Source of the DNA: a virus
Length of the DNA: 64,000 nucleotides
IMG/VR virus record: IMGVR_UViG_3300046821_000076
Span: 1 to 64,000 of that record
Strand: one strand, 5' to 3'
Part shown: positions 47,069 through 62,460 of the stretch, piece by piece
How positions within the stretch are numbered: position 1 is the stretch's first letter
Layout of the letters: every line of letters starts with the position of its first letter
The notes under the pieces: model-generated
Told to the model about the DNA's origin: nothing
Seen by the model: only the letters and a program-made list of their open reading frames with translations
Database searches by the model: none
Program-made: the position numbers and the translations under genes

Positions 47069-47085
47069 AAAAGTTTTTAACTTTT
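47069..47085 (+). promoter_or_regulatory. AAAAGTT-TTT-AACTTTT triloop hairpin
   Basis: A perfect 7-bp stem with a three-base loop. The stem has an A-rich left arm and a T-rich right arm, like those at 47185 and 50028. N4 virion RNA polymerase promoters are 5-7-bp stems with three-base loops. No start site is mapped. Confidence 0.45.
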
Positions 47086-47184
47086 TACTTATTTTTTTAT
47101 TTTGAAATTTGAGATACGTATTACTAGTATGAAGACTAAACACTAGGGAACTTTTTCACATTTTTCATTTCTTAGTACCACTGT

Positions 47185-47201
47185 AAAAGTTTTCAACTTT
47201 T
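47185..47201 (+). promoter_or_regulatory. AAAAGTT-TTC-AACTTTT triloop hairpin
   Basis: The same stem as the hairpin 116 bases upstream, with loop TTC in place of TTT. The downstream bases (TCACATTTTC) repeat those near 47155. It is a candidate early promoter pair. Confidence 0.45.
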
Positions 47202-47386
47202 TCACATTTTCTATTTTTGGGTACAGAGGTAGGGGTTACTACCACTACCCACCTACCTACCGATACTACCCCCCTATTCAAATTCTGAAAAAGGATTCTT
47301 ACCCTTACCTGGATTAATCAAATAGATTCTATTGTCTAGTGTGTGGATAATTCTGTCCAATATACGTATATAAGAGAGATATCAAA

Positions 47387-47674
47387 GTGAAATTCCTTAA
47401 AGAAGCAAATACAATGGCAGCTGAAGTGTTTGGTACTATCACCGATACTACTACCATGTTACGTGGTGCAGCCAAAGCCGGTGTAGTATATACCGAGCAA
47501 TGGGAAGACTCTGCTCGTAAGAACGTGCAGGCTGACTTGTTAGAGAAGTCATACAAAATGCGTAAGAAGGTTGATAAGCTAATGGAGCATATCGATCCAG
47601 AGATGATGACTCTTAATAAGCAAGGTTACTATGACTTAGACTTAGGTAAGCTAATCGAAGCGCATAAGAAGTAA
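47387..47674 (+). CDS. Small early protein, unknown
   Basis: 95 residues from a GTG at 47387 (AGAGAG upstream); an ATG at 47414 is an alternative start without a good ribosome site. The predicted fold is helical, with a charged C-terminal half (LEKSYKMRKKVDKLMEHIDP). No family is recognised. It is the first rightward gene after the AT-rich stretch, so probably among the first expressed. Confidence 0.6.
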   Translation: MKFLKEANTMAAEVFGTITDTTTMLRGAAKAGVVYTEQWEDSARKNVQADLLEKSYKMRKKVDKLMEHIDPEMMTLNKQGYYDLDLGKLIEAHKK

Positions 47675-47680
47675 TCCAAT

Positions 47681-47708
47681 AGAGTATATGACTTAGGTTG
47701 TGTACTCT
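47681..47708 (+). repeat. 28-base hairpin repeat, copy 1
   Basis: AGAGTATATGACTTAGG followed by TTGTGTACTCT forms a 7-bp stem (AGAGTAT/GTACTCT, one T-G pair) around a 14-base loop. It lies just after one gene and 32 bases before the next. Confidence 0.6.
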
Positions 47709-47739
47709 CATCCATTAATATAAACAAGGAACCATCACC

Positions 47740-47925
47740 ATGTACGAATCAATGTTTAATCCAACTACATTAGTTATGTCTTTCACTATCTACTCACTAC
47801 TTCTACTGTGTGTAGTATTAGCAGTTAAGCTTCTTAAAGTAGAGAAAGAGAATAGAAAGCAGATGAATTACATCCTCTATCTAAATGATCGCTTAACTAA
47901 ACTAGAAGAGAATGAAACAAAGTAA
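47740..47925 (+). CDS. Small membrane protein with coiled-coil tail
   Basis: 61 residues. One transmembrane helix spans about 10-33 (LVMSFTIYSLLLLCVVLAVK), followed by a charged helix (LLKVEKENRKQMNYI). CAAGGAACC precedes the ATG. Its layout (short N-terminus, single span, cytoplasmic coiled coil) fits an early membrane-targeted host-modifying protein; the function is unknown. Confidence 0.6.
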   Translation: MYESMFNPTTLVMSFTIYSLLLLCVVLAVKLLKVEKENRKQMNYILYLNDRLTKLEENETK

Positions 47926-47931
47926 TTACAT

Positions 47932-47959
47932 AGAGTACATGACCTAGGTTGCGTACTCT
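47932..47959 (+). repeat. 28-base hairpin repeat, copy 2
   Basis: AGAGTACATGACCTAGG followed by TTGCGTACTCT. Relative to copy 1 the T-G pair has become C-G while the stem is kept, so the difference preserves pairing. It has the same position between two small membrane-protein genes. Confidence 0.6.
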
Positions 47960-48004
47960 TATTCACTAATCAATCAATCAATCATCATCATGTTGGAGTT
48001 CCGT

Positions 48005-48199
48005 ATGTTCTCATCCTTCTTCTCTACTCAAGAATCAAAGCTACGTTGCGTGCTAACAATTATCCTGTTCATTGTCAGCCTAGTTGGTGTATTCATTCTG
48101 GATAATGATATGCATCAGGTGTATGCGTTATCTGGCCTATTCAGTGCAGTACTTATTCAGATGTTCTATTGGGCATCTGATTATGATGCTCCATTCTAA
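48005..48199 (+). CDS. Small two-span membrane protein
   Basis: 64 residues from the ATG at 48005, which has GGAG eight bases upstream; the ATG at 47990 lies before that site. There are two hydrophobic segments (CVLTIILFIVSLVGVFIL and VYALSGLFSAVLIQMFYW). It may act at the inner membrane early in infection; a holin-like role is possible but there is no lysis gene nearby. A tract of AATC/ATC repeats precedes it. Confidence 0.6.
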   Translation: MFSSFFSTQESKLRCVLTIILFIVSLVGVFILDNDMHQVYALSGLFSAVLIQMFYWASDYDAPF

Positions 48200-48202
48200 A
48201 TA

Positions 48203-48245
48203 ATATAACCAATCTCAATTAAGAGGTTGGTTATATATTTTTATT
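48203..48245 (+). terminator. Strong terminator after the membrane-protein gene
   Basis: A 14-bp stem (ATATAACCAATCTC paired with GAGGTTGGTTATAT, one G-T pair), a six-base loop, then ATTTTTATT. It starts three bases after the stop codon region. Confidence 0.85.
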
Positions 48246-48731
48246 CTGTATTACACATTACACACAATACACATTACACATAACCCTAACAGTATGTGCG
48301 CCAGACAGTAGTAAACTTATTACAAAATCTAAATATTCTGTGAATACAGATTCATATATAAACCAATAGATATACAGTAATAACTACAATTACTAATCTC
48401 TAAATACACAGTATTAGTTAGTAATTCATATAAATATGTAGATAGGTATAGGTATACATTTAATTAACTGTATTAAATATAGGTATATAGGTAGATGTAA
48501 GTAGATATACCTAATTATATTTAGTTATTAGTATGTCTATCATATCTACTATTACTACTAACCGTACTCTTATTCTTATATATACTTATTGTCTAACAAT
48601 ATAACTAAAGACTATCTCTTAGGTTGCAGCCCTTAGCTGTATTGTATCTTCAAATCTCAAACTGTCAATAGGCATATGCCTGTTTCTTGTCTTGTGTATA
48701 GATACCTTCATCTAATTCAAGGAGCAACCTA
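48246..48731. other. AT-rich gene-free region with inverted repeats
   Basis: No gene is seen over almost 490 bases. It holds ACACATTAC-type short direct repeats (48251-48285), an AATTACTAA/TTAGTAATT inverted repeat (48388 and 48418), a TAGGTATAT/ATATACCTA stem (48480-48513), and the palindrome AGGCATATGCCT (48669-48680). It is a candidate for the genome end, terminal repeat or origin. No ribosome site of note is seen before 48719. Confidence 0.5.
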
Positions 48732-48815
48732 ATGAACTTACCAGACACAATCATATACACACTACTTAGTATATGCTTAGGCTTGAGCATAAGCTTGCTA
48801 CTAGCTTACGCCTAA
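48732..48815 (+). CDS. 27-residue hydrophobic peptide (uncertain)
   Basis: AAGGAG lies seven bases before the ATG, and the 27 codons encode MNLPDTIIYTLLSICLGLSI and six more residues, a single membrane span. The second half coincides with a nested RNA stem (48776-48816), so the sequence may be constrained by structure rather than coding. Translation is plausible but unproven. Confidence 0.35.
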   Translation: MNLPDTIIYTLLSICLGLSISLLLAYA

Positions 48816-48816
48816 G
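48776..48816 (+). ncRNA. Nested stem-loop in early leader
   Basis: CTTAGGC (48776-48782) pairs with GCCTAAG (48810-48816), and inside it TAAGCT (48790-48795) pairs with AGCTTA (48803-48808). A further 13-bp perfect stem follows six bases later (48822). Together they look like a structured RNA leader. Confidence 0.45.
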
Positions 48817-48821
48817 TACTA

Positions 48822-48876
48822 AGAGCATATTTCCGTAACTAGTGGAACTAACTACTAAACCATGGAAATATGCTCT
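48822..48876 (+). ncRNA. Perfect 13-bp stem upstream of an early gene
   Basis: AGAGCATATTTCC (48822-48834) and GGAAATATGCTCT (48864-48876) are perfect complements with a 29-base loop, followed by ATTTCTA. It is too long-looped for a classic terminator. It may be an RNase processing site, attenuator or mRNA cap structure. It lies 38 bases before the ATG at 48914. Confidence 0.5.
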
Positions 48877-48913
48877 ATTTCTACTTGCTACCCTAAAGAC
48901 TAAGGATATCTAC

Positions 48914-49177
48914 ATGCTACCTTATTTTACCTACACAGAGGACATTGAGAGCTTCTGTATGCTTATGGGATTCACTATAGACACTAGGGTACCTTTTAGT
49001 AAATATGTGTGTATGTGCTCGTTGGGGTATTCTCCAATACCGCGTATTACATCCTATAATTTAAACCCCGACAATGATTCACTAATACCACCTGAAAAGG
49101 TAATACACTACCTAACATTAATACTTAACGGCTACTCTTATAAGAAAGCTGTTAATGAGTTAAATGTTGTTGGGTGA
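48914..49177 (+). CDS. Small early protein, unknown
   Basis: 87 residues from the ATG at 48914 (TAAGGAT upstream). A GTG at 48842 would extend it through the 13-bp stem and is unlikely. The last 30 residues (PEKVIHYLTLILNGYSYKKA) resemble the ends of several other early proteins here. Function unknown. Confidence 0.6.
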   Translation: MLPYFTYTEDIESFCMLMGFTIDTRVPFSKYVCMCSLGYSPIPRITSYNLNPDNDSLIPPEKVIHYLTLILNGYSYKKAVNELNVVG

Positions 49178-49281
49178 TTCGTCCTCTTTCCATTACATAA
49201 GGTAAACCACCTAGGATTCTCTTGAGTCCTTGTTGTCTTGTGTGTGGCAATAATGTCAAATTTAATCAAGGAATACATATC

Positions 49282-49596
49282 ATGGCTTTTAACAAACGTT
49301 CTACTACAGCTCCTGCTCAAACAACTTCAACTAATTCTATTGAGCGCGAAGCTCGTACGACAATTGGTTACGTTAACTTGGGCATCCCATTGACTGACGG
49401 GACTAACATCAAAATTGCAGGTGATTTAACCATTCGCCTGTACGCAGAAAATGCAGGACATGTTCAACTTGTAGATGCAATTCGTAATGGTGACATTACA
49501 TCTGAAGAGGCATCTCACATGATCGTAGCGTCAATTGCATTAGCACGTGATGCAGATTCACCAGTTGAATTAGATTGGACACGTATCGGCAAATAG
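49282..49596 (+). CDS. Small early protein, conserved-looking, unknown
   Basis: 104 residues from the ATG at 49282 with CAAGGAA upstream (an in-frame start at 49222 lacks one). The first 25 residues are Thr/Ala/Ser-rich and probably disordered. The rest is a compact alpha/beta domain (TTIGYVNLGIPLTDGTNIKI ... MIVASIALARDADSP). Codon use is less AT-biased than in its neighbours, as in highly expressed genes. Possibly an abundant early inhibitor of a host function. Confidence 0.65.
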   Translation: MAFNKRSTTAPAQTTSTNSIEREARTTIGYVNLGIPLTDGTNIKIAGDLTIRLYAENAGHVQLVDAIRNGDITSEEASHMIVASIALARDADSPVELDWTRIGK

Positions 49597-49601
49597 CAAA
49601 C

Positions 49602-49638
49602 AAATACGGATATTACCTTTAAGGTGATGTCCGTATTT
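49602..49638 (+). terminator. Long hairpin after the early gene
   Basis: AAATACGGATATTACCT pairs with AGGTGATGTCCGTATTT (17 bp with two G-T pairs) around a TTA loop. It starts six bases after the stop. No T-run follows, so it may act by RNA stability or as part of the triloop set. Confidence 0.55.
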
Positions 49639-49674
49639 AAATTCATACCCAAACACACACTCCAAGGAACACTC

Positions 49675-49917
49675 ATGACTAAACTCGTTTACACCCTCAT
49701 TGCAATAACGCTAGCGATTACTGTATTCATCTCATGCCCATACTTGTATGACCAAGCATACGCTGCTGCGTATGACTGCGACAATGGACATGCTTCTGCA
49801 TGTGATTGGTTACAAGCACACAATGCAGACGCAGATGCGCATGATACATCAAATACATGTCACGCAAGCAACACATGCTTGCCAACTAAAACAACAAACA
49901 ATCCCTTCACTCAATAG
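49675..49917 (+). CDS. Exported or membrane-anchored Cys-rich small protein
   Basis: 80 residues from the ATG at 49675 (CAAGGAAC upstream). Residues 1-22 form a signal-like hydrophobic helix (KLVYTLIAITLAITVFISC). The rest is periplasmic-type, with DC, SAC, NTC and NTC cysteines (five after the helix region begins), rich in His, Asp, Asn and Ala. A first Cys after the helix (FISCPYL) resembles but does not match a lipobox. It could be a superinfection-exclusion or envelope protein. Confidence 0.6.
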   Translation: MTKLVYTLIAITLAITVFISCPYLYDQAYAAAYDCDNGHASACDWLQAHNADADAHDTSNTCHASNTCLPTKTTNNPFTQ

Positions 49918-49976
49918 AGTGTTGGGATTCAATTTAAAGCTTTAAATATAGAACTCACTTCGTTCGTACTTATTTG

Positions 49977-49999
49977 CTAAATATACTTTGTATATTTAG
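49977..49999 (+). promoter_or_regulatory. 10-bp TTT-triloop hairpin
   Basis: CTAAATATAC TTT GTATATTTAG is a perfect 10-bp stem with a three-base loop. There is no T-run after it, so it is not a standard terminator. A second TTT-triloop stem follows 28 bases later (50028). Confidence 0.5.
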
Positions 50000-50027
50000 T
50001 GTTAAAAGCAATAACTAAACAGTATGT

Positions 50028-50048
50028 AAAAGTCCCTTTGGGACTTTT
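50028..50048 (+). promoter_or_regulatory. AAAAGTCCC-TTT-GGGACTTTT triloop hairpin
   Basis: A perfect 9-bp stem with TTT loop, then GCTG, 41 bases before an ATG. In the N4 P2 promoter, as I recall it, the stem and three-base loop are followed by TTTT and a G start 11 bases from the loop centre; here TTTT-G falls at the same place. It could equally be a terminator. Confidence 0.5.
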
Positions 50049-50089
50049 GCTGACACTGATTTATTAAACCAAACAGTATAGAGGTAGCT

Positions 50090-50407
50090 ATGTTTGACTT
50101 AGACGAAGAAGATTTATACTTCCCTAACACTAAAGTAATACGTGATCTCTTAGAAAGCTTAAACTACAAAGTTGTGCCTATAGATACTAGAGTACGCAGA
50201 AAGGATTCTGATTATAGTGCTATATGCTTTAGTGCATGGATAACGCAGTTTGATCAGATTAAGCAAACCAATAAAATGTACTACTGTATGGATGGTCCTA
50301 CTCTTACAGAAGAACAATCAATACTCGTATTTGACATACTTCATGTATGTCCTGATTACCAAACATTCAAAGAAGCGTTGGAACAGTATATAGAGAGTAA
50401 TCCTTAA
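50090..50407 (+). CDS. Small early protein, unknown
   Basis: 105 residues, acidic. GAGGTAGCT precedes the ATG. The layout, an acidic N-terminus and then a C-terminal helix (EEQSILVFDILHVCPDYQTF ... KEALEQYIES), resembles that of nearby early proteins. No family is recognised. Confidence 0.6.
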   Translation: MFDLDEEDLYFPNTKVIRDLLESLNYKVVPIDTRVRRKDSDYSAICFSAWITQFDQIKQTNKMYYCMDGPTLTEEQSILVFDILHVCPDYQTFKEALEQYIESNP

Positions 50408-50424
50408 AAATATTGGAGCATACG

Positions 50425-50733
50425 ATGAAAAACATTCTTTTATATTACGTGGCTGTGCCTTGTACAGCTGAGATAATAGACTTAATCACACTCTTTTCTA
50501 TACAGACTAGAAAATATGATCCAATGCATAGAGATATACACGGATGTGGTTTGTTTATCTACAATGCACATTTAGAACTAGAAAGTGTAGATGATGATAC
50601 AGAATGGCTTCTTGAGAATAAAGATGCAATACAGGTATTAGCATTTTATGCTAATAAAGATTTTAATGGGCTATGTGCCTATTTAAACACTATCCCTGAA
50701 AGACCTTTTAATGTCTGCACTGACTCATTTTAA
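50425..50733 (+). CDS. Small early protein, unknown
   Basis: 102 residues from the ATG at 50425, with TTGGAG upstream; the in-frame start at 50413 overlaps that site. Mixed alpha/beta with several Cys (VPCTAEIID, HGCGLF, GLCAYL, NVCTD). No metal-binding spacing is convincing. It lies 17 bases after its upstream neighbour. Confidence 0.6.
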   Translation: MKNILLYYVAVPCTAEIIDLITLFSIQTRKYDPMHRDIHGCGLFIYNAHLELESVDDDTEWLLENKDAIQVLAFYANKDFNGLCAYLNTIPERPFNVCTDSF

Positions 50734-50856
50734 ATAACTTAATTCTGTTGTGCTGTTGCTTGTTTTGTCTTCGCGTTCCGCAAACCCTCATAACTCATAG
50801 TTCTCCCTCTTGTCTCGTTATTGGGATTATCCCTAAATAAACCAAGGAATATTTAT

Positions 50857-51279
50857 ATGCGTATTTCAGTTAATCCAGAGTACTTTGATCTTATTCCATG
50901 CCGATCTATAGAATACGCTCAGGCTATAAACATTGATCAAATCAAAGGGATGGCTATTACAGCAGTAGTCTATAAAGAGTCTGATGAATCCCTACACATT
51001 CATTTAAATACTCATGTACTTGAAATGATTCATCATCAAGATTGCTGTGAAACAGTATATCTAGCAGATGTTGTAGGAGAGTTTGAAGACCTTATTGGAT
51101 ATCCGCTAATAGAGGTGTCTGAATCCACTGTAGATATAGGCAATGATGATATCTCATCTACTGCCTCCTACTATAACTTTAAAACACTTAAAGCCAGTGT
51201 ACAGCTACGATGGGTGGGTGAAAGTAACGGTTACTACTCAGAAACCATAGGCTGTTATCTATATCCTACAGGAGATTAA
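50857..51279 (+). CDS. Early protein, unknown
   Basis: 140 residues from the ATG at 50857, preceded by AAACCAAGGAAT. Beta-rich (AITAVVYKESDESLHIHL ... ETVYLADVVGEF). No motif is recognised. The 123-base gap before it contains a pyrimidine/G-rich stretch (TTGCTTGTTTTGTCTTCGCG) also seen near 55887. Confidence 0.62.
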   Translation: MRISVNPEYFDLIPCRSIEYAQAINIDQIKGMAITAVVYKESDESLHIHLNTHVLEMIHHQDCCETVYLADVVGEFEDLIGYPLIEVSESTVDIGNDDISSTASYYNFKTLKASVQLRWVGESNGYYSETIGCYLYPTGD

Positions 51280-51281
51280 CA

Positions 51282-51566
51282 ATGAGGCTTAAAAAGCTAT
51301 TTTCACACGAGTATTTAATTACTGAAGTTTCAACTGAAGTATGCGACTTAGCTTGCTTCTTAGATATTCCATTTAATATTGATGATCCAGCTGATCATTT
51401 CTACATTAAAGAACCTGATACAGACCTCTGTATCAAATCTTTCGAGTACAGACGTGATTCTGATGTACTGGTATCTTCCAAAATATTTTGCGAAATACTC
51501 ATGGACATTAAATCAGGCATGTCAGTCATAGAAGCCTACAACAAGCAAGGTTATACCTATACCTAA
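51282..51566 (+). CDS. Early protein, unknown
   Basis: 94 residues. GGAG lies eight bases before the ATG, inside the end of the upstream gene, so the two are coupled. The C-terminus (KIFCEILMDIKSGMSVIEAY NKQG) has the helix-G-helix form shared with several other early proteins. Function unknown. Confidence 0.6.
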   Translation: MRLKKLFSHEYLITEVSTEVCDLACFLDIPFNIDDPADHFYIKEPDTDLCIKSFEYRRDSDVLVSSKIFCEILMDIKSGMSVIEAYNKQGYTYT

Positions 51567-51580
51567 ACCAAGGAAATCAT

Positions 51581-52549
51581 ATGCACCTTTCACTTACAGA
51601 ACGTCAAGAGCTCATTGAAGAACAGCTATCCAAGAAGCATATCAATACTAAGGTATTGGACGAATTGACTAGCGATCTAGACATGATGGATAAGATCATT
51701 GAAGGTATTGAATTACTAGAGCTATGGTGCAATGCTCCAGGCGAATACGAGTCACAACAGGCTCGTAAAGATCACATCAAGGAGATGGCTTTAAAAGACA
51801 TTGTAGAAACGGTATACGTAACTACGTTGGCTTTAAAGAACACGACTACACTGGCTAATCTTATAGGCATCCTAGCACTTAAGCTTGAATTCGAGGAGTC
51901 ATACCAAGGATTCAAAGCAGCAGGGGAGATTATAGCTCTACTCTGTTATACAGATGTGTATGACTTAGATAAGCCAAAGAAATACGACAGTATTATCGTA
52001 AAGCCTAATTTTGATCTACCAGATGAAACCAAGGAATATATTGAGAATGCTCAGTATCTTCCTCCCTCTATCAGTGAGCCTAAATATCTAATACATAACC
52101 GTAGTAGTGGCTACAGAACTATTAAGCGAGACTCTCTCATTCTAGGTGGTGCTATTCACCATCATAACGAGGACATCTGCTTAGATGTCCTTAATCGTAT
52201 GAATGAGACAAAACTCACAATGAATCTAGATATGGTAAATATTCAGCAATTATATGAAGGAGACTTAGATGTTATTGAAGACTTTGAAGGGAGTGCTCTT
52301 GAGTATCAACGAGCAGTGTCACAACAGAAAGAGAACTGGGAGTTATTCCTCAGACGCTCAGAGCTTGCATACTCAATTGTAGAAGATAACCCATTCTATC
52401 TAACTCATAAGGTAGATAAACGTGGACGTATCTACTCACAAGGATATGCCATTAACGTACAAGGCAATAGCTTCCAAAAAGCGTGTATCGATCTAGTCAC
52501 TAAAGACTATATCGAAGTGCCTGATGATTACTTCACACCCAAGGGATAA
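51581..52549 (+). CDS. RNA polymerase II subunit 1 (N4 gp15-like, N-terminal part)
   Basis: 322 residues. The C-terminal 50 residues carry the T/DxxGR block of T7-type RNA polymerases: D279-K-R-G-R283, then IYSQGYAINVQGNSFQK, matching T7 DWRGRVY...NPQGND. The protein stops 40 residues later, before motif A, which occurs in the gene at 53973. The first 270 residues correspond to the N-terminal domain. With that gene it would form a two-chain polymerase for middle transcription. It is preceded by AAACCAAGGAAA. Confidence 0.88.
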   Translation: MHLSLTERQELIEEQLSKKHINTKVLDELTSDLDMMDKIIEGIELLELWCNAPGEYESQQARKDHIKEMALKDIVETVYVTTLALKNTTTLANLIGILALKLEFEESYQGFKAAGEIIALLCYTDVYDLDKPKKYDSIIVKPNFDLPDETKEYIENAQYLPPSISEPKYLIHNRSSGYRTIKRDSLILGGAIHHHNEDICLDVLNRMNETKLTMNLDMVNIQQLYEGDLDVIEDFEGSALEYQRAVSQQKENWELFLRRSELAYSIVEDNPFYLTHKVDKRGRIYSQGYAINVQGNSFQKACIDLVTKDYIEVPDDYFTPKG

Positions 52550-52552
52550 ATC

Positions 52553-52900
52553 ATGAGTGACATTGAATTTGGATGTATAGGGGTAGACGTTGAAGGATAC
52601 TCCCAGCAGGGCTTACGTAGATTATTTGAAGAAAACGGTCTAGACAGTTTTATTGCTAACCATAGCTTCTTAGGTGAAGACGGCCCTTACAAAGAAGGTA
52701 GATACCTCCAAGCTGAATGTAGAGGTCTATTGCGCGAGACAACCTCTCTATATGTATTAAGTGGTTATATAAGCCACACGACAGACATTGAAACCTTCCT
52801 TCTGATATTAAGGACTGCCCTACTCGATATTACTGCAGCAAATGCATTAATAAATGAGATGTACTATCAAGGGTTAATTACCCCAAAGAGGGTAATATGA
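52553..52900 (+). CDS. Small protein inserted between RNA polymerase genes
   Basis: 115 residues, alpha/beta (LRRLFEENGLDSFIANHSFL ... ETFLLILRTALLDITAANAL). It starts four bases after the polymerase subunit stop and overlaps the next gene by four bases. Unknown family. Together with the next three genes it separates the two polymerase subunits. Confidence 0.62.
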   Translation: MSDIEFGCIGVDVEGYSQQGLRRLFEENGLDSFIANHSFLGEDGPYKEGRYLQAECRGLLRETTSLYVLSGYISHTTDIETFLLILRTALLDITAANALINEMYYQGLITPKRVI

Positions 52901-53940: not shown

Positions 53941-53972
53941 CCAACACACCTAAACAAACCAAGGAATAAACC

Positions 53973-55223
53973 ATGAAACACTTCTCAGCTTTAGACTACC
54001 TGTGTATTGATATTGCCAACAACGTTGGTAAACAAGATGGCTTCCTTGGAGACAAGGATACCTTTGAAAATCGTATCCAATGGGTTAAAGACAATGTCAA
54101 TGATCTACCTGAATACTACGTTAGAGCAGAAGATAAGTATCAATACATCAAAGGTGTATTAGCTTTAGCTGATGTCCTTGGAGGTAAGCCTACAGGTCAT
54201 ACTGTAGCTCTTGATGCAATCTGCTCAGGCATATCTATTATGTCTGCAATTACAGGTTGTCTCAAAGGCTGTAAGGCTACAGGACTTGTAGCCACAGGCT
54301 ACCGTCCTGATGCCTATACAGCCGTTACAGACGCTATGAACAGAATGCTATCTAAGCAAGGTATCCAAACAACAATCTCCCGTAAGGTAGCTAAGGAAGC
54401 AGTAATGCAAGCGAGCTATGGAAGTACTCGTAAACCAAAAGAAACTTTTGGCGAGAATACTCCTGAACTACGTGCATTTGAAGATGCTTGTATGGAGGTA
54501 GCCCCTGAAGCCTTTAAGCTTATGAGAGTATTAATTGATGCTTGGAATCCTAACGCTTTAGAACACTCTTGGTATATGCCTGATGCATTCAGCGTAAAGA
54601 TCAAAGTACTAGAACAGAAGGAAACCAAGATATACATCAAAGAATTGGACGATGCTTGTGTGACTATGATCACTAAAGAGAATAAACCAGTTAAACGTGG
54701 TGTATCTCTTTGCGCTAACATGGTTCACGCATGTGACTCGTACATACTACGCTCTATGGTACGTAGATGCTCATATGACGTATATAACATCACTGAGGTA
54801 CTAACAGTCATTAACAATGAATTAGTAGCTCCTACGAGCTATACAGTGATCCCTGATAAAATGGAAGAACTCCTAGCTCTCTACGCTGTTATGAATATTC
54901 CTGATACTCGTATCTTGGATTACATCACTCCATCTACAGTCAATGCAGTACCTAAGAAATACTTACTTCAATTGAAGAATACTATTTCTATGATGCTTCA
55001 TTACGGTAGCTTTGATATCCTTACTATTCACGACGCGTTTCGCTGTGCTCCATCTAATTGCAATGCAGTACGCTACTGGTATGCAGAGATTCTAGCTGAG
55101 CTTGCTGACTCTAATATCCTAGAGTGTATCTATGAACAAATCACAGGTACTCATCGTAAGTTTAGAAAAGCTGTACCAAACCTTTCATCTCTAATCCGTC
55201 AAGCAGATTACCAACTCTCATGA
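53973..55223 (+). CDS. RNA polymerase II subunit 2 (N4 gp16-like, catalytic part)
   Basis: 416 residues with all catalytic motifs of single-subunit RNA polymerases: motif A LDAICSGISIMSAI (D81), motif B RKVAKEAVMQASYG (R137, K141, Y149, spacing +4/+8 as in T7), and motif C LTIHDAF (H353, D354). The N-terminus begins just before motif A, so this chain alone lacks the DxxGR block that lies in the gene at 51581. It keeps the Tyr that the giant virion polymerase has lost. AAACCAAGGAAT precedes the ATG. Confidence 0.92.
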   Translation: MKHFSALDYLCIDIANNVGKQDGFLGDKDTFENRIQWVKDNVNDLPEYYVRAEDKYQYIKGVLALADVLGGKPTGHTVALDAICSGISIMSAITGCLKGCKATGLVATGYRPDAYTAVTDAMNRMLSKQGIQTTISRKVAKEAVMQASYGSTRKPKETFGENTPELRAFEDACMEVAPEAFKLMRVLIDAWNPNALEHSWYMPDAFSVKIKVLEQKETKIYIKELDDACVTMITKENKPVKRGVSLCANMVHACDSYILRSMVRRCSYDVYNITEVLTVINNELVAPTSYTVIPDKMEELLALYAVMNIPDTRILDYITPSTVNAVPKKYLLQLKNTISMMLHYGSFDILTIHDAFRCAPSNCNAVRYWYAEILAELADSNILECIYEQITGTHRKFRKAVPNLSSLIRQADYQLS

Positions 55224-55258
55224 GTTGGTTTTCTCTTTAATACCATCAAGGAATAAAC

Positions 55259-55887: not shown

Positions 55888-55934
55888 TGCTTGTTTTGTT
55901 GTTCTTCTTTCTTTTTTCTATGATTTAAACTAAT

Positions 55935-55953
55935 GTGCCCTTTGGGCACTTTT
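55935..55953 (+). promoter_or_regulatory. GTGCCC-TTT-GGGCAC triloop hairpin
   Basis: A perfect 6-bp stem with TTT loop followed by TTTTATGG, 41 bases before an ATG and 48 bases after the previous stop. It is one of the CCCTTTGGG group and could be a terminator or a virion-polymerase promoter. Confidence 0.5.
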
Positions 55954-55993
55954 ATGGTCATATGATCACGTAACTTTCAAAGGACATAAGCAA

Positions 55994-56545
55994 ATGCTTA
56001 AACTTAAAGACATTCAAACTAAACCAGTAATCTACCAAGGGCTTGAAGTAGATGTACCTGCAGATACTAACTTCATGTGGTTACGTCATAACGATAAGAA
56101 GACAGTATTATGGGCTTCTGCAAAAAAACCTGTATGGCATCGTGAGCATAAATGCTATATCCCCCCTTCAGGTGCTACTCTCGTAGCTGTACTTGAACAT
56201 GCAGACCTTACTGTAGAACAAGTAAAAGATTCATTAGAGACTGATGAAAGCTTACCTACAGCTCAAGATTTAGAACAACTAGATGTAGTTGTAAACCTTG
56301 TTAAAAATCTACGTAGATTTGCAAACAGCTTAGAACGTAACGTAACTAAAGCAAGTACTAATCCTAGCCCTGAAAGCATTCAGTCACTTCTACAACATGT
56401 ATATGCTGACGAAGGTGAATTAGATAACTTCTATAATCATGCTATTGAAGAAGCAACAAAATACGGTATTGTTGCTGAGCAGGATGAAGACTCAGACGAA
56501 GATCATGAAGCATTGCTTAAATTCATTAATGCCATCCTTAAATAA
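55994..56545 (+). CDS. Early protein, unknown
   Basis: 183 residues. The N-terminal 70 form a beta-rich domain (ADTNFMWLRHNDKKTVLWAS ... KCYIPPSGATLV); the rest is helical and acidic (ARRFANSLERN, AEQDEDSDEDHEAL). AAAGGACATAAG precedes the ATG. The tail is similar in kind to acidic DNA-mimic tails. Function unknown. Confidence 0.62.
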   Translation: MLKLKDIQTKPVIYQGLEVDVPADTNFMWLRHNDKKTVLWASAKKPVWHREHKCYIPPSGATLVAVLEHADLTVEQVKDSLETDESLPTAQDLEQLDVVVNLVKNLRRFANSLERNVTKASTNPSPESIQSLLQHVYADEGELDNFYNHAIEEATKYGIVAEQDEDSDEDHEALLKFINAILK

Positions 56546-56553
56546 TCTATTTG

Positions 56554-56577
56554 GAGGTACAGCTTATGCTGTACCTC
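56554..56577 (+). terminator. Perfect 10-bp hairpin
   Basis: GAGGTACAGC, TTAT, GCTGTACCTC (56554-56577), nine bases after the stop of the previous gene. It is followed by TTAGAGG and lacks a T-run, so it is an attenuator or weak terminator ahead of the inserted endonuclease gene. Confidence 0.5.
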
Positions 56578-56625
56578 TTAGAGGTGCTTATCAAACTGTT
56601 AACTTATACGTAGGAAAGACAAATC

Positions 56626-57336
56626 ATGGTATCGCATATTAAAGATATTACAGGTATTAAATTCGGATCGCTTACTGCTATTAAATTAGCTTATGTTAAG
56701 AACAGACGGACTTATTGGGAGTATAGCTGCGTATGCGGTAAAACTCACATTGCACGTGCTAGTACTGTAACTTATGAGGTAACTCGCAAAAACGATCCTG
56801 AATTACCATCATGCGGATGTATAGACGTAGCTAGAAAAACTAAACATGGTTTTCATAAAACTAATGATTTACACCCTGCCTATATAGCCTATAGAAATAT
56901 GATGGCTAGATGCTACAACCCTAATGACACTGGCTATAAACGGTATGGAGCAGTAGGGGTAACTGTAGCAGACTGTTGGAAAGGTAACCCTGAAGCTTTT
57001 GTTAAATGGTCTCTTGAAAATGGATGGGATAAAAACCTACACATTGATAAAGATATTAAATGTAAAGCCATGGGGATCTACCCTCATATATACAGTCCTG
57101 ATACCTGTACTTGGACTACTGCTAAACTTAATGTAGCAGAAGCCACGAATAGAACTAATTACGGCAAACGTCCTAACATCAAGCTAAGCCAAGAAGAAGT
57201 AGATGAGATTCTTCATCTCTACTCCAGTGGAGAGATTACTAACCAATCTGAGCTTGCTAGAATGTACGGAGTAACCCCAAGTTCTATATGTAGATTGATA
57301 CCACTAGAATTAAATAAACGTAACAAGCTGATTTAA
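56626..57336 (+). CDS. Homing-type endonuclease with zinc motif and HTH tail
   Basis: 236 residues. The N-terminus has a C-x-C...C-G-C zinc-like element (SCVCGKTHIA ... PSCGC), also found at the end of the intron-encoded HNH protein. The middle (YIAYRNMMARCYNPNDTGYK, RYGAVGVTVADCW, then SPDTCTWTTAKLN) is the RCxxP..YxxYGxRGI..W...NxxW pattern of a phage HNH-related endonuclease family. Residues 195-225 form a helix-turn-helix (NQSELARMYGVTPSSICRL). It is likely a free-standing mobile gene. Confidence 0.78.
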   Translation: MVSHIKDITGIKFGSLTAIKLAYVKNRRTYWEYSCVCGKTHIARASTVTYEVTRKNDPELPSCGCIDVARKTKHGFHKTNDLHPAYIAYRNMMARCYNPNDTGYKRYGAVGVTVADCWKGNPEAFVKWSLENGWDKNLHIDKDIKCKAMGIYPHIYSPDTCTWTTAKLNVAEATNRTNYGKRPNIKLSQEEVDEILHLYSSGEITNQSELARMYGVTPSSICRLIPLELNKRNKLI

Positions 57337-57340
57337 GATA

Positions 57341-57592
57341 ATGATCGATATTCTTATCGTAGACACACCTATAGATAGATTAAATAAACTAGCTACTCTG
57401 TTTAAAGGTCATTGTTATTGGTTTAAGCATAATACAGGTAAACTACTAATAAGACAGTTCTCAGCCTTTAATAGCGATACATCCACATATTCCAGCTTAT
57501 CTGAAGATGATTTAGCAACACTAGAATTCTTACCTGACTTTGACACAAGATATACATACCTGTTATCGTTGTCTCTCGGTATCAATGCCTGA
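57341..57592 (+). CDS. Small unknown protein
   Basis: 83 residues, alpha/beta, starting four bases after the endonuclease gene. No family is recognised. The last 25 residues (SEDDLATLEFLPDFDTRYTY) form an acidic helix. It ends at a 213-base stretch with several RNA stems. Confidence 0.58.
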   Translation: MIDILIVDTPIDRLNKLATLFKGHCYWFKHNTGKLLIRQFSAFNSDTSTYSSLSEDDLATLEFLPDFDTRYTYLLSLSLGINA

Positions 57593-57785
57593 CTTAGTGG
57601 CTTAAGAGTTTATGACTCTTACCACCTATGCTATTTAATTCCTTGGATAGTATGTGGTGTAACTAGGTAGCCTAGGTTTAATTTCATTTACCTACTCCTT
57701 ACGCTTCCCTCCGTATGGCGAAAGAGGGAACCCATTCAGTTTATAGCCTATAACTCTACCCCAAGATGTTATAGGTTTTTTTTTT
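57593..57785 (+). ncRNA. Structured non-coding stretch, candidate small RNA
   Basis: There is no gene here. In order: a stem with 2-base bulge, GTGG..TAAGAGT / ACTCTTA CCAC (57597-57625); an unstructured AT-rich part; a 7-bp stem TTCCCTC / GAGGGAA (57705-57730); and a CCTATAAC/GTTATAGG terminator with ten T. Stem, stem, strong terminator is the layout of a phage small RNA or a riboregulator of the gene at 57806. No tRNA features are present. Confidence 0.45.
57747..57785 (+). terminator. Strong rho-independent terminator (T10)
   Basis: CCTATAAC (57747-57754) pairs with GTTATAGG (57768-57775) around a 13-base loop and is followed by ten T. It is the clearest terminator in the early region. 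Confidence 0.85.
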
Positions 57786-57805
57786 ATCTAAACCAAGGAA
57801 CAGTA

Positions 57806-58144
57806 ATGAAAACTATATACTTGCCTCCAACCTACATAATACCTAATGGTAGTGTGATTTCCTGGAGCTTTCCTGCTACAGATTTCGATAGTGATATTCA
57901 AAAACTTATCTCAAAGCTTGACCTTATACGCATAGAAGGTGGCAACCATAACTACGCATTTAATCTCTTACCTACCCACCATGCTCCATTAGTTTTCGCA
58001 TTTCACGAGACTAATTTGCTTATGCAGTTAGTGACGGGAGAATCAGATAGCTTTTACCTCAAAGCTGCTCTACGTGAATTTATGAATGCTTTTATAGTAT
58101 TCAATTCCAAAGGTGATCGAGTGTACCCAGAGGATATTATCTAA
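57806..58144 (+). CDS. Small unknown protein
   Basis: 112 residues. A beta-rich N-terminal half is followed by a helix (SFYLKAALREFMNAFIVF). AAACCAAGGAAC precedes the ATG. Its stop overlaps the next ATG (TAATG). No family is recognised. Confidence 0.6.
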   Translation: MKTIYLPPTYIIPNGSVISWSFPATDFDSDIQKLISKLDLIRIEGGNHNYAFNLLPTHHAPLVFAFHETNLLMQLVTGESDSFYLKAALREFMNAFIVFNSKGDRVYPEDII

Positions 58145-58458
58145 TGCTTAAAGCGTATAAAACTGCGTGTAGACGAAGAAGCTTAAGAGTTGAATTAGTA
58201 TCTGATTTTTTAGATGCTAGAGCGCTTGAGGAACACCGTATCGAGTTAGACTGCGTAAGCTTATCACCGGAAATGTACATTTCACTATTCAGATCATCCA
58301 GATACCCTCTTGTTAATATAGACGAGTATTTCAATTATGCTGAGTTAATGGGCATTAATCTCGCTACAGATTCTAAAGCACGCGAAGAATCCTTCGCAAT
58401 ACTTTTAGAAATCTTAGAAACGAAATATGGCATTGAGTATGTTGAGGCTGAAAAGTAG
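58144..58458 (+). CDS. Small unknown protein
   Basis: 104 residues, basic N-terminus (KAYKTACRRRSLRVELV), then mixed helices. Coupled to the previous gene by a one-base overlap. A triloop hairpin begins on the base after its stop. Confidence 0.6.
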   Translation: MLKAYKTACRRRSLRVELVSDFLDARALEEHRIELDCVSLSPEMYISLFRSSRYPLVNIDEYFNYAELMGINLATDSKAREESFAILLEILETKYGIEYVEAEK

Positions 58459-58478
58459 AGCACCCTTTGGGTGCTTTT
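58459..58478 (+). terminator. AGCACCC-TTT-GGGTGCT hairpin with T-run
   Basis: A 7-bp perfect stem with TTT loop starts directly after the TAG stop and continues into TTTTG. Its place suits a terminator. It has the same CCCTTTGGG core and triloop as the hairpins at 50028 and 55935. Confidence 0.6.
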
Positions 58479-58529
58479 GTGGGAACTATCTAGTTCTTTC
58501 AATTAACCTCACTACTTAGGAGATAGGCA

Positions 58530-58826
58530 ATGCTTATTTCAGATTCAGACACACAATCTTTAATTGCTGATGCTGTTAATGCAAAGCAACAAGGCGTGAA
58601 GCTCACTCAAGAAGATTTAGCATTGGCTTATGGTATTAGTACTACAAGTGTAAGACGTGTTCTTGCAGAGGCTAAACTGGTTGAGTTCAAATCTCATAAA
58701 TGCCAATGGGAAGATGACCTAATCCAATGTCTTAAATCCCATGGGTTAGACAGCCTGCAAACACTAAGTAGCTTTATCGCTAAGGCTAAACAAAATGAAC
58801 ACGCAATCCAATCAGCACAAGCTTAA
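58530..58826 (+). CDS. Helix-turn-helix protein
   Basis: 98 residues. Residues 25-50 (LTQEDLALAYGISTTSVRRV) form a clear HTH. The C-terminal 45 residues are helical (DDLIQCLKSHGLDSLQTLSS). It may regulate the AAA+/VWA operon that follows or recruit a host factor to phage DNA. It overlaps the next gene by 32 bases. Confidence 0.7.
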   Translation: MLISDSDTQSLIADAVNAKQQGVKLTQEDLALAYGISTTSVRRVLAEAKLVEFKSHKCQWEDDLIQCLKSHGLDSLQTLSSFIAKAKQNEHAIQSAQA

Positions 58827-58971
58827 ACACAATCCGATGTATTCAACAGCTAATAGCTTAGATGAAGCATTAGCTGAAATTAAAACTCGATTACCTATCG
58901 AAAACAGTATTCAACTTAAAGCAGCTCTTATGCTGTACCACAACACGTTAATCAAGGAATTAAACAAATGA
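58795..58971 (+). CDS. 58-residue unknown protein
   Basis: A short gene whose ATG (58795) overlaps the end of the HTH gene and whose stop overlaps the start of the AAA+ gene by four bases (ATGA). It is helical and charged (SLDEALAEIKTRLP, then LKAALMLYHNTLIKEL). It is supported by tight coupling on both sides. Function unknown. Confidence 0.6.
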   Translation: MNTQSNQHKLKHNPMYSTANSLDEALAEIKTRLPIENSIQLKAALMLYHNTLIKELNK

Positions 58972-60023
58972 CTATTTCAAGCAACCGTGTAAACGTAACT
59001 CTTGCTGACGCTAAACCAATGGTTAAAGCGTTAATCGCATCAGGTATTCCTACTAACCTCTTATCTAGCCCTGGGCTTGGAAAGAGTGACTTGATCAAAG
59101 CAATCGCAAAAGAATTAAATCTAAAGTTGATTGATATTCGTCTATCTACTTGCGATCCTTGCGATCTATCAGGACTACCTAACATTCAGAATGGACGTTC
59201 TGTATGGAGTCCTAACCAAGCATTCCCATTACAAAACATGGATGAAGTACCTGAAGGTTACGAAGGCTGGTTACTTTTTCTTGATGAGATCACCAATGCT
59301 CCTATGGCAGTACAGGCAGCGTCATATCGTCTAATCCTAGATCGTGAAGTAGGACAGTACAAATTACATGACAAAGTATTCATCGCTTCAGCAGGTAATT
59401 TAATTACTGACGCTGCAGCAGTTACAGGTGAAATGTCTACAGCATTGAAATCTCGTATGGCTCACATCAACATTCAAGTATCAGCGGATGCTTGGTTAGA
59501 GTGGGCAGATAAACCAGAGAATAGTGTGCATTACGCAATTACTTCTTATATCCGTTTTAAACGTGAAACTGGTTTATATACATTCAATCCAGATGTAGAT
59601 GCAGATACTTATGCATGTCCTCGTTCATGGGGTATGGCAGCTAAGATCATTGATAACGTAGGTATTGATAACAACAGTATCCAAATGTTATTGGGTTCAG
59701 TGTTATCTATGGGTGTAGCTTTAGAATTCATGACATTCGTGAAGTACTACTCAAACTTACCTACATTAAAAGAAATCTTACGTGATCCGCATAATGCACG
59801 TATGCCTACAGAGCGTGGACCACTATTCGCACTATCAGGCTTAGTATCTACGTCTATGGATAAAGACAACGCAGGTACGTTATTGGAATACGTAAAACGT
59901 ATGCCTTCAGAAATGCAAGCAGCTACTGCTATTCCTGCATTCAAACGTACACCTGCAATCCTAACAGTAACTGCAGTACGTGAATGGTTACAGCCATACA
60001 TCGCTAAGTTACGTCAAGACTAA
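58968..60023 (+). CDS. MoxR-type AAA+ ATPase
   Basis: 351 residues. The Walker A motif is SSPGLGKSD at 33-41, Walker B LLFLDEITN at 102-110, and sensor 1 IASAGN near 142. This is the MoxR/dynein-related AAA+ form, which usually works with a VWA-domain partner, encoded here 69 bases downstream. N4-like phages carry the same pair (from memory gp24/gp25). The role is probably remodelling of a host or phage protein complex. A terminator follows. Confidence 0.85.
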   Translation: MTISSNRVNVTLADAKPMVKALIASGIPTNLLSSPGLGKSDLIKAIAKELNLKLIDIRLSTCDPCDLSGLPNIQNGRSVWSPNQAFPLQNMDEVPEGYEGWLLFLDEITNAPMAVQAASYRLILDREVGQYKLHDKVFIASAGNLITDAAAVTGEMSTALKSRMAHINIQVSADAWLEWADKPENSVHYAITSYIRFKRETGLYTFNPDVDADTYACPRSWGMAAKIIDNVGIDNNSIQMLLGSVLSMGVALEFMTFVKYYSNLPTLKEILRDPHNARMPTERGPLFALSGLVSTSMDKDNAGTLLEYVKRMPSEMQAATAIPAFKRTPAILTVTAVREWLQPYIAKLRQD

Positions 60024-60037
60024 TTAAACATATAAAT

Positions 60038-60064
60038 ACCTCCCTATTTAGGGAGGTTATTTAT
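60038..60064 (+). terminator. Terminator between AAA+ and VWA genes
   Basis: ACCTCCCT, ATTT, AGGGAGGT (60038-60057) then TATTTATC. It is a perfect stem but only a partial T-run, so it probably attenuates. Confidence 0.65.
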
Positions 60065-60091
60065 CTAAGCACCTCATATACAGAGATTCTT

Positions 60092-61303
60092 ATGAAACGT
60101 ATTATTCCAACACAAGAACAGCAAGAAGTTCTATCAAGAACATTGACTCATATCCTTATTCGTCCTGATAACGCTTTCTACGCATCTCTAGCATTAGGTG
60201 CTGAAACTTATTGGTCAAACGATATTCCTACAGCAGCTACCAACGGTAAAGACCTTGTCTTTAATCCTCAGTGGTTTACCTCTTTAAACAAAGAAGAACG
60301 TATTGGGTTAATTCTACATGAGTTAATGCACATGGTTTATCACCATACTATTCGTATCGGTAATCGCGATCCTGAGCTATGGAACGTAGCAGGGGATCAT
60401 GTAATTAATACCGAGCTTAAGAAGAGTGGTTACACACTTCCTAAAGGAGGTTGTTGTGATATGCGTTTTCAGGGTATGGAAACAGAAGAGGTATACAACA
60501 TCCTCTGGGACGAAGAACAACAACAACCAGGAAAACACAAAAACAACATGCCTGACTTATTACTCCCAGGAGAAGATGATTCAGATTCTCAAGGTCAATC
60601 TGCAGGAGAAAAAAGCCAAGGAGGGGATAGTGAAGGTAATATCCCAACTCCTTCTAAAGAAGAGATTGAACAGCACATCAAAGAACAATTAGTTCAAGCT
60701 GTACAATCTGCTCAACTGAAAGGACAAGCAGGAAATATCCCTGGGAACATCGTACGAGATTTACAAAAGCTATTACAGCCTAAGTTACCTTGGAAACAGA
60801 TTCTACGTAAGTTTCTATTCTCTATGAATAAGACAGATTATTCATGGACTAAACCAAACAGACGATATATCCATCAAGGGATTATCTTACCTAGTCTTCA
60901 TGGAGAATCATTAGGGCAAATTGATTTTGCTATTGATACTTCAGGCTCTGTAAGCATAGCTGACTTCAACCGTTTCATCAGTGAGATTGCTTATGTATTT
61001 AAGCAGTTTAAACCAGACGGTATAGGTGTATATCAATTCGATCACATCCTACAGTCTACAGACAAGGTAGCTACTCTTAATGACTTCATGAAATTAGAAT
61101 TCAAAGGAGGAGGGGGTACTAATATCGAACCTGTACTTGAGTACTATAAAGCTCAAAGTAAAGGTAAAGCGTTAATTGTACTTACTGATGGATACTTCCA
61201 CCACACTGCTGAAATGAATCCAAACAAACCTGTTATCTGGCTTATCTACGATAACCCTAACTGGCAACCTCCATTTGGTAAAGCAGTCTACTTTGACAAC
61301 TAA
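60092..61303 (+). CDS. VWA-domain protein with N-terminal metallopeptidase-like motif
   Basis: 403 residues. An HELMH motif at 76-80 (IGLILHELMHMVYHH) resembles the DUF2201-type zinc-binding domain. A Gln/Gly/Ser/Glu-rich linker lies near 150-200. A C-terminal VWA domain carries the MIDAS motif DTSGSVS at 282-288 and VLTDGYFHH. Such proteins partner MoxR ATPases as substrate adaptors. Whether the zinc site is a protease is uncertain; the linker suggests flexible tethering. Confidence 0.83.
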   Translation: MKRIIPTQEQQEVLSRTLTHILIRPDNAFYASLALGAETYWSNDIPTAATNGKDLVFNPQWFTSLNKEERIGLILHELMHMVYHHTIRIGNRDPELWNVAGDHVINTELKKSGYTLPKGGCCDMRFQGMETEEVYNILWDEEQQQPGKHKNNMPDLLLPGEDDSDSQGQSAGEKSQGGDSEGNIPTPSKEEIEQHIKEQLVQAVQSAQLKGQAGNIPGNIVRDLQKLLQPKLPWKQILRKFLFSMNKTDYSWTKPNRRYIHQGIILPSLHGESLGQIDFAIDTSGSVSIADFNRFISEIAYVFKQFKPDGIGVYQFDHILQSTDKVATLNDFMKLEFKGGGGTNIEPVLEYYKAQSKGKALIVLTDGYFHHTAEMNPNKPVIWLIYDNPNWQPPFGKAVYFDN

Positions 61304-61312
61304 GGTACAACC

Positions 61313-61480
61313 ATGAATTGCAGTTATTGTAATAAACCTATCATCCTTGTACCTTCTGCCAAAGAACGAGCAGCCAAGGATACTTCAGGTAAAACCGCAA
61401 AGGATTATGAACGCCTGTTTACTCAACATGCTGAATGTATCTTGAAGAGACGTCACACCACCATAAACACTCAAGCCTAG
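61313..61480 (+). CDS. 55-residue zinc-ribbon-like protein
   Basis: MNCSYCNKPI at the start and FTQHAEC near residue 37-42 give a C-x-x-C...H-x-x-C pattern, a common small phage zinc finger. The start at 61313 lies 9 bases after the VWA stop, with AAGG upstream. It may bind nucleic acid or a host protein. It is followed by a perfect hairpin. Confidence 0.62.
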   Translation: MNCSYCNKPIILVPSAKERAAKDTSGKTAKDYERLFTQHAECILKRRHTTINTQA

Positions 61481-61492
61481 ATTACTAGGCTT
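61473..61492 (+). terminator. Perfect 8-bp hairpin overlapping the stop
   Basis: AAGCCTAG, ATTA, CTAGGCTT (61473-61492) includes the TAG stop of the zinc-ribbon gene. It is followed by ACCTTC rather than a T-run. Attenuator or RNA-end structure. Confidence 0.45.
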
Positions 61493-61520
61493 ACCTTCAA
61501 ATACACATCAAGGAACTACC

Positions 61521-62081
61521 ATGACACGTTTAACTAAAACCATCAAAACAGACATTAAAGGTCTTATCCGAGATAAGGCAATTAACCCTAGAGAGTTAGC
61601 CTTAGAAGCAAAGAAACAAGATTTCTTACTTAAAGCTTTTTGGGGACAAATCTCTAAATATGAATACCAAGCATGGAAAATGCTACCTGAAGCCTTATAC
61701 AAAGCTGTAACGAATACTACATACAGATTACATGTAAAAGATCGTGCTTTAGGGAGCATAGAGGCTCCCTTTAATGAATATATCGCATACCCTCGTAATA
61801 TGACTATGTGGATGACGTACGAAGTACTACCTCCGCACTTACAGCAAGAGTTTAAAGAACTCATTAAAGAAATTGATGTTCACGATGCTTATGTTGCAGA
61901 AGTAATGTCTAACTTAGACGTAACACTTAACTCGTGTACTACTGTTAAAAAGTTACGTGAGCTTTGGGTTAACGGTGCTGAGATCATTGATAAAGCATTA
62001 GGGCAATCCCAACAGTCACCTACAGTATATATGCCTATGGTAGCTATACAAACACTAGATGCATTAGTGCCTTTACCTTAA
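61521..62081 (+). CDS. Unknown protein, possibly Nmad5-like
   Basis: 186 residues. The opening (MTRLTKTIKTDIKGLIRD) and general layout resemble phage Nmad5 proteins, a domain linked to nucleotide modification, but no catalytic residues can be named and the match is by pattern only. CAAGGAAC precedes the ATG. It ends 10 bases before the next gene. Confidence 0.55.
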   Translation: MTRLTKTIKTDIKGLIRDKAINPRELALEAKKQDFLLKAFWGQISKYEYQAWKMLPEALYKAVTNTTYRLHVKDRALGSIEAPFNEYIAYPRNMTMWMTYEVLPPHLQQEFKELIKEIDVHDAYVAEVMSNLDVTLNSCTTVKKLRELWVNGAEIIDKALGQSQQSPTVYMPMVAIQTLDALVPLP

Positions 62082-62091
62082 GGAGATTACC

Positions 62092-62439
62092 ATGGGTTAT
62101 CGTTCAGAACTGCACGCAGTAGTTGGACTCGTTGACTTACTTGAGTTTGAACGTCTGATCAAAGAAGCAGACCTAGCAGATTGTTTTGAAGAACACGACA
62201 AATCAGACTTAGCTGTAGAATTTCGAGCTTCACATTTAAAATGGTATGACGGATACGCTGATGTAGATAAGATCAATGAATTCTTTAATAACAGTAAATT
62301 CTCGATTTTATTACGTATAGGTGAAGAGTTTCCAGACAAAGAATACTACACAGGCAATTCTGATCTAGAACAGCTATTCAATCTATGTATAGATGTTGGT
62401 ACTGATATTAGCTGGTATGAAAACTGTCTTGAAGAATGA
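62092..62439 (+). CDS. Unknown small protein
   Basis: 115 residues. Starts MGYRSELHAVV, then a ferredoxin-like alpha/beta pattern (VGLVDLLEFERLIKEADL ... FSILLRIGEEF). AAGGAGATTACC precedes the ATG. An acidic C-terminus. The MGYRSxxxxxx start is common to a family of small phage proteins of unknown role. Confidence 0.62.
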   Translation: MGYRSELHAVVGLVDLLEFERLIKEADLADCFEEHDKSDLAVEFRASHLKWYDGYADVDKINEFFNNSKFSILLRIGEEFPDKEYYTGNSDLEQLFNLCIDVGTDISWYENCLEE

Positions 62440-62460
62440 GGGAACTTTGTTCCCTTTTTT
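62440..62460 (+). terminator. GGGAAC-TTT-GTTCCC hairpin with six T
   Basis: A perfect 6-bp stem with TTT loop begins on the base after the stop codon and runs into TTTTTT. It is a good terminator; it also has the triloop form of the other early hairpins and lies 33 bases before the helicase ATG. Confidence 0.7.

Follow-up and report, generated by a model that had tools for sequence, protein, structure and literature searches.

The stretch of DNA considered here, referred to as the window, comprises positions 1 to 64,000 (64 kb) of the IMG/VR virus record IMGVR_UViG_3300046821_000076, which is 72,334 bp long, and belongs to an N4-like phage of the family Schitoviridae. Its nearest named phages, judged by RNAP2 (the large subunit of RNAPII, 42-47% identity), are the Acinetobacter schitoviruses At2, XC38, Presley, and nACB1. 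Nine short hairpins of the window, most of them with a TTT loop, had been proposed to form a single family located before early genes and related to the promoters of the virion RNA polymerase (vRNAP) of phage N4. All nine stems are present, although the one listed at 62440 has 7 bp and starts at 62439. However, they do not constitute one family. Six of them, at 5191, 13620, 50028, 55935, 58459, and 62440, have a loop closed by C:G and, 13 nt past the loop centre, a TG[GA] motif (TGR), while those at 47069, 47185, and 49977 stand apart.

The six members of the family lie on the plus strand. GGTCGC-TTT-GCGACC (5191..5205; TGA at 5211-5213) occupies the gap between divergent genes that leads into the thymidylate synthase operon, whose ATG is at 5237, and CCAAAC-GTT-GTTTGG (13620..13634; TGA at 13640-13642), the only member in which the loop is not TTT, is located between the primase and Sak4 genes. 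As these two hairpins precede middle genes, the description of the family as lying before early genes was too narrow. The hairpin AAAAGTCCC-TTT-GGGACTTTT (50028..50048; TGA at 50051-50053) precedes the open reading frames (ORFs) leading to RNAP1 (the small subunit of RNAPII, 51581..52549, plus strand, phrog_2166) and RNAP2 (53973..55223, plus strand, phrog_2051). Further downstream, GTGCCC-TTT-GGGCAC (55935..55949; TGG at 55955-55957) is followed by a gene at 55994, AGCACCC-TTT-GGGTGCT (58459..58475; TGG at 58480-58482) by the operon of the ATPase gp24 (from 58968), and AGGGAAC-TTT-GTTCCCT, which leads into five further T residues (62439..62455; TGA at 62460-62462), by the helicase gene (from 62488). 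The stems, which have 5-7 bp in the vRNAP promoters of N4, measure 6 bp in three copies and 7 bp in two, while that at 50028 reaches 9 bp, made up of 5 G+C-rich bp plus A4/T4. The next start codon is found 33-55 nt after the hairpin, and all copies except the one at 5191 have a same-strand gene upstream.

The mere number of stems says little about this family. The 72-kb genome holds 50 stems with a 3-nt loop and no fewer than 6 bp, compared to 26 in dinucleotide shuffles, but loops of 4-6 nt show a similar excess, so the bare stem count is weak evidence and was rejected as a diagnostic on its own. The signal resides instead in the loop sequence and in the noncoding placement. Noncoding DNA represents 7.8% of the window, and yet seven of the eight stems with a TTT loop and 6 or more bp are noncoding (Fisher P=1e-4 versus other loops). 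A 9-bp stem with a TTT loop at 50636, absent from the original list, lies inside a coding sequence. When the closing pair is C:G, the noncoding fraction of these TTT stems is 6/6. No hairpins of this kind were found in the late region of the window, no TCC-loop stem of at least 5 bp in the matching orientation appears in the genome, and Rfam gave no match at its gathering threshold.

Among the 7 C-closed hairpins of the window, 6 carry the TGR motif exactly 13 nt past the loop centre, with stems of 6, 7, or 9 bp. The binomial probability of this register is about 5e-9 if it is taken as fixed, and 3e-6 if three registers are allowed. Moreover, five C-TTT-G stems with TGR at 13 nt were observed, compared to 0.017 in shuffled genomes (both strands), and all five are intergenic, on the plus strand, and pointing into the next gene. 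An origin of the six by chance in AT-rich intergenic DNA, to which the general excess of stems with loops of 3-6 nt would lend some colour, is hardly credible in view of this count and of the synteny described below. In relatives, TG[GA] appears at 12 nt in 17% and at 13 nt in 32% of 116 C-TYC-G sites, 50% of the 24 C-TAC/ATA-G sites have it at 12 nt, and the background is 2-3%. In the N4 promoters P1-P3, TGG begins 10 nt from the loop centre, and the start G is at 11. In the window, the motif keeps a constant distance to the loop, whatever the position of the stem end, which fits a hairpin-binding polymerase with a set start and is unexpected for a terminator.

Comparable hairpins have been identified in relatives, sampled as 80 IMG/VR contigs around RNAP2, with orientation counted over 2.3 Mb of related contigs. 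Their intergenic triloop hairpins are mostly C-TCC-G and C-TTC-G, and nearly all of them point forward (forward:reverse counts of 88:3 for TCC, 17:0 for TTC, 14:1 for ATA, 9:1 for TAC, and 6:2 for TTT), the C-TYC-G hairpins amounting to 105 forward versus 3 reverse. The stems of the latter have 6 or 7 bp, never 8 or more, and only 3% are followed by a T-run. In contrast, the TTCG tetraloop terminators of the same contigs have stems that range from 5 to 12 bp, most often 8, and 51% of them are followed by T-runs, indicating that both are distinct classes. C-TTT-G hairpins are also found after RNAP2 in two contigs (L062 and L071), so the loop variant of the window is not unique.

At four loci in all, the window holds a TTT or GTT hairpin where relatives carry TTC, TCC, or TAC hairpins. 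The thymidylate synthase gap contains ggcag-TCC-ctgcc in At2, tggcag-TCC-ctgcca in nACB1, and gggca-TTCCT-tgccc in Presley, whose loop is TTCCT at two loci. The primase-Sak4 gap contains ccgtac-TTC-gtacgg in At2, gcgcac-TCC-gtgcgc in XC38, and ctgagc-TTC-gctcag in nACB1, and a scan based on the primase revealed a hairpin at this place in many more schitoviruses, often with a TCC-containing loop and in some cases with a bulge or a 4-nt loop. Hairpins precede the gp24 operon as well (TTC in At2 and nACB1, TAC in XC38, TCC in Presley), and C-TTC-G hairpins occupy in At2, XC38, and nACB1 a gap like that before 55994, where the correspondence of the genes relies on order and size only. At2 has seven hairpins, none of them (0/7) in the late region. 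The distance to the next ATG spreads widely in relatives, in which the hairpins are closer to the upstream stop, and this variation led to its being dropped as a marker. Hairpin, loop class, orientation, spacing, and synteny are all direct observations.

The loop also depends on the lineage and on the position in the genome. Upstream of RNAP2, loops are TAC in LIT1-like, ATA in Cbunavirus-like, and TYC in N4-like phages, while downstream of this gene they are nearly always TYC. In five contigs (L049, L051, L032, L054, and L072), the loops before RNAP2 (TAC or ATA) are unlike those after it (TCC). The occurrence of different loops before and after RNAP2 within one genome suggests two promoter specificities.

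On the non-template strand, the sequences of the three proven N4 promoters are gttgc-TTC-gcaac, aagaagc-TCC-gcttctt, and aagctgc-TCC-gcagctt. A search with the pattern C-TYC-G and at least 5 bp of stem, covering 65 of the 70 kb of N4, recovers exactly P1, P2, and P3. The window family resembles them in the short perfect hairpin, the 3-nt loop, the C:G closing pair, the T-rich spacer, the start-like TGR motif, the orientation into the next gene, and the presence of a phage-encoded vRNAP. The purine at the template loop centre (-11) is also maintained, being A in all six copies. On the other hand, the TGR motif is 13 nt from the loop centre instead of 10, and the window hairpins are also found before middle operons. 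None of the six shows the strict template loop 5'-GRA-3' (TYC on the non-template strand), and the N4-type G 11 nt from the loop centre is found only at 50028 and at the doubtful 49977. The start at the N4 distance, originally noticed at 50028, is real for that copy, although it is not the common signal of the family. Thus, the family would act like N4 vRNAP promoters while departing from them in the strict loop, the -8 position, and the +1 position, and represents a variant of that class rather than a member. Early-region hairpins with 3-nt loops have also been predicted as promoters, three per genome, in the Pseudomonas phages LIT1 and LUZ7 (PMC3715699) and in the Pectobacterium phages CB1, CB3, and CB4 (PMC6027278). 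The TAC hairpins detected here before LIT1 genes 12 and 13 agree with the published predictions, and LIT1 carries TCC hairpins after RNAP2 too. The window differs from these phages in holding six hairpins, with another loop and a shared fixed-distance motif, that reach past RNAP2.

The vRNAP of the window phage (17522..30982, minus strand; phrog_2206, 1257 bits) has 4,486 aa, around 1,000 more than the 3,500 of N4, and its matching RNAP domain starts near residue 1960, compared to about 1000 in N4. According to the alignment, the N4 catalytic residues R424, D559, K670, and D951 are kept, and Y678 is replaced by F as in LUZ7. In N4, W129 stacks on a loop base (PMC4496689); in N4 and eight relatives this position holds W, Y, or F, and the window vRNAP has E there, in an alignment of ~24% identity. 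Such a replacement would suit a changed loop, even though a purine occupies the template loop centre as in N4. The N4 contact residues K114, R119, D901, and R904 are unconserved even among relatives in the alignment, and hence uninformative, and the RNAP domain yielded no match among PDB sequences in a plain sequence search. A nearest-neighbour model, blind to sheared pairs, assigns identical DNA folding energies to both strands and so reveals no strand preference. NMR work on d(GTACAAAGTAC) has reportedly indicated that C:G-closed AAA triloops can form a sheared A.A pair. For the N4 promoter hairpin, a sheared G.A pair has been described (PMC4496689). By analogy, the former can be regarded as the counterpart of the latter.

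According to these data, the six hairpins are best read as hairpin promoters of the N4 vRNAP type with a C-AAA-G template loop, placed before middle genes too, a reading to which a probability of about 0.68 is assigned. Polymerase, DNA extrusion, promoter use, and start base are inferred as follows. In supercoiled DNA, a hairpin of 6-7 bp would be extruded from the template strand, its triloop reading C-AAA-G there and TTT on the non-template strand, and a single-subunit polymerase of the phage, most likely the injected vRNAP, would bind this hairpin. RNA synthesis would then begin a set distance further downstream, at or beside the conserved TGR, with the G of this motif (14 nt from the loop centre, versus 11 in N4) as the probable start base. 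The operons driven in this way would be those of RNAP1/RNAP2, the gene at 55994, the gp24 ATPase, the helicase, thymidylate synthase/RNR, and Sak4/SSB. The link to N4 vRNAP promoters originally drawn for all nine hairpins finds support for the six, on the grounds of TGR spacing, orientation, intergenic location, and synteny, and finds none for 47069, 47185, and 49977.

Several observations weigh against this reading. Injection is considered to restrict the vRNAP promoters of N4 to the left end (PMC4496689), and the copies at 5191 and 13620 are far from that end, before middle genes for nucleotide metabolism and replication. The template loop is AAA in the TTT copies, whereas it is GGA or GAA in N4; only 5191 has the template G at -8, a position that is unconserved in relatives too (0.08 bits). 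Neither this base nor the TTT loop agrees with the contacts established for N4. In relatives, the hairpins follow stop codons closely (median of 13 nt), as terminators would, and the change of loop seen in several lineages, from TAC or ATA upstream of RNAP2 to TCC downstream, could imply two readers. Finally, the predicted 5' RNA structure past the sites is no stronger than in control gaps (P=0.19), and for this reason the stable 5' RNA hairpin that follows N4 P1 and P2 was rejected as a feature of these sites.

In one alternative, the heterodimeric RNAPII (or a co-factor) would take the place of vRNAP as the reader of these promoters, the hairpin supplying the single-stranded DNA that RNAPII prefers. 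N4 RNAPII does bind single-stranded DNA with gp2 (PMC4496689), members of the class precede middle operons, and the ATA and TAC loops upstream of RNAP2 in Cbunavirus- and LIT1-like phages are unlike the TCC loops downstream. Nevertheless, this alternative is unlikely, given that C-TYC-G is the loop of the proven vRNAP promoters of N4, and that N4 RNAPII promoters are AT-rich, extend from -7 to +2, and have no hairpins (PMC4496689).

It is improbable, to a greater degree, that the six are ordinary intrinsic terminators at operon ends, consisting of a short G+C stem and a T-run. They do share with terminators the G+C stem, the occasional T residues behind it, and the proximity to stop codons: the copies at 58459, 62440, and 13620 start 0-2 nt past one, those at 13620, 55935, and 62440 have 4-6 T behind the stem, and in the helicase gap At2 and nACB1 carry terminators with 4-nt loops and T-runs. 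However, the T count in the 7 nt behind the stem (4, 5, 1, 5, 4, and 5 in the six copies) leaves 5191 and 50028 without a T-run, and 5191 lies between divergent genes. The TGR distance is fixed whatever the length of the stem, the homologous class in relatives never reaches 8 bp and rarely has T-runs, unlike the coexisting TTCG terminators, and the real terminators of this genome use other loops, such as acctccct-ATTT-agggaggt after gp24. Unlike terminators, then, the family combines a 6-7-bp limit, a specific loop, and a fixed downstream TGR, with no T-run requirement. The copy at 58459, originally considered a possible terminator, behaves as a family member, while that at 62440 may be an initiator, a terminator, or both, since it carries the TGR motif as well as a T6 tail in a gap where relatives have terminators. 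The T-run and early-gene arguments initially put forward are not the decisive ones. A role as RNA elements, in which 5'-leader hairpins would affect mRNA stability or translation, is quite remote. The location 33-55 nt before start codons agrees with it, but it is the loop, rather than the start codon, that sets the position of the TGR, and the preference for C-TYC-G (template C-GRA-G) is explained by DNA hairpin stability and the N4 contacts, and not by a known stable RNA triloop.

The three outlying hairpins deserve separate consideration. Those at 47069-47085 and 47185-47201 (plus strand) are near-identical T-closed hairpins, AAAAGTT-TTY-AACTTTT, in the noncoding leader of the early region. 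They have a T:A closing pair, and no TGR motif was found 12-14 nt from the loop. This pair may represent candidate early promoters of this phage. The hairpin at 49977..49999 (plus strand) has an AT-rich 10-bp stem and a C-TTT-G loop without the TGR motif, so its family membership is doubtful. All three may also be chance stems. The leader (47000-47386), in which a near-identical pair of AAAAGTTTTYAACTTTT elements is spaced by 116 bp, shows repeats of AACTTTTTCACATTTT and a tract rich in TACC, and may lie near the physical genome end. Between the terminase gene and the early region, positions 46037-46999 hold three small plus-strand ORFs; the DNA of 46037-46306 resembles by eye that of 46452-46712, which suggests a duplication, and the product of 46452-46712, the only one of the three compared, had no match in PHROG.

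The remaining genes of the window include those for a gp25-like HNH protein (from 60092), thymidylate synthase/RNR, exonuclease, primase, Sak4, SSB, capsid, portal, and terminase. The primase gene (10526-13618) is interrupted by ~950 bp between residues 76 and 77 (At2 numbering), and this insert carries an HNH endonuclease ORF of 229 aa (10913-11602) and a group I intron match below threshold (28 bits, E=6e-5). A homing endonuclease carried by an intron, at the Walker A region, is the probable identity of this insert. A search of IMG/VR with RNAP2 as the sole query found no close relative. The contig IMGVR_UViG_3300043426_000074 (L103) matches window positions 8681-16410 at 99.97% identity, indicating that the phage has been sampled more than once; it was the only close match found for the primase alignment, and adds no variation to it.

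To our knowledge, only in N4 have single-stranded hairpin promoters received detailed study, and this phage possesses no more than three of them, all at the entering end. A broader proposal, held only tentatively and at less than even odds, is that a hairpin-promoter code extends across the schitoviruses, in which the triloop (TYC, TAC, ATA, or TTT) would vary with the lineage and with the gene class (early versus after RNAP2), middle genes would be driven too, and polymerase and loop would diverge together, the window phage representing a complete change to C-TTT-G in which the loop-stacking aromatic residue was lost. The rule of a C-NNN-G triloop, a 6-7-bp stem, and a TGR 12-13 nt from the loop centre could be used to annotate hundreds of genomes. 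If the reading is correct, many operons would be marked by one kind of hairpin whose loops switch by lineage, making up a polymerase specificity code testable by loop swaps, and the view that hairpin promoters are limited to the first-injected DNA would be challenged.

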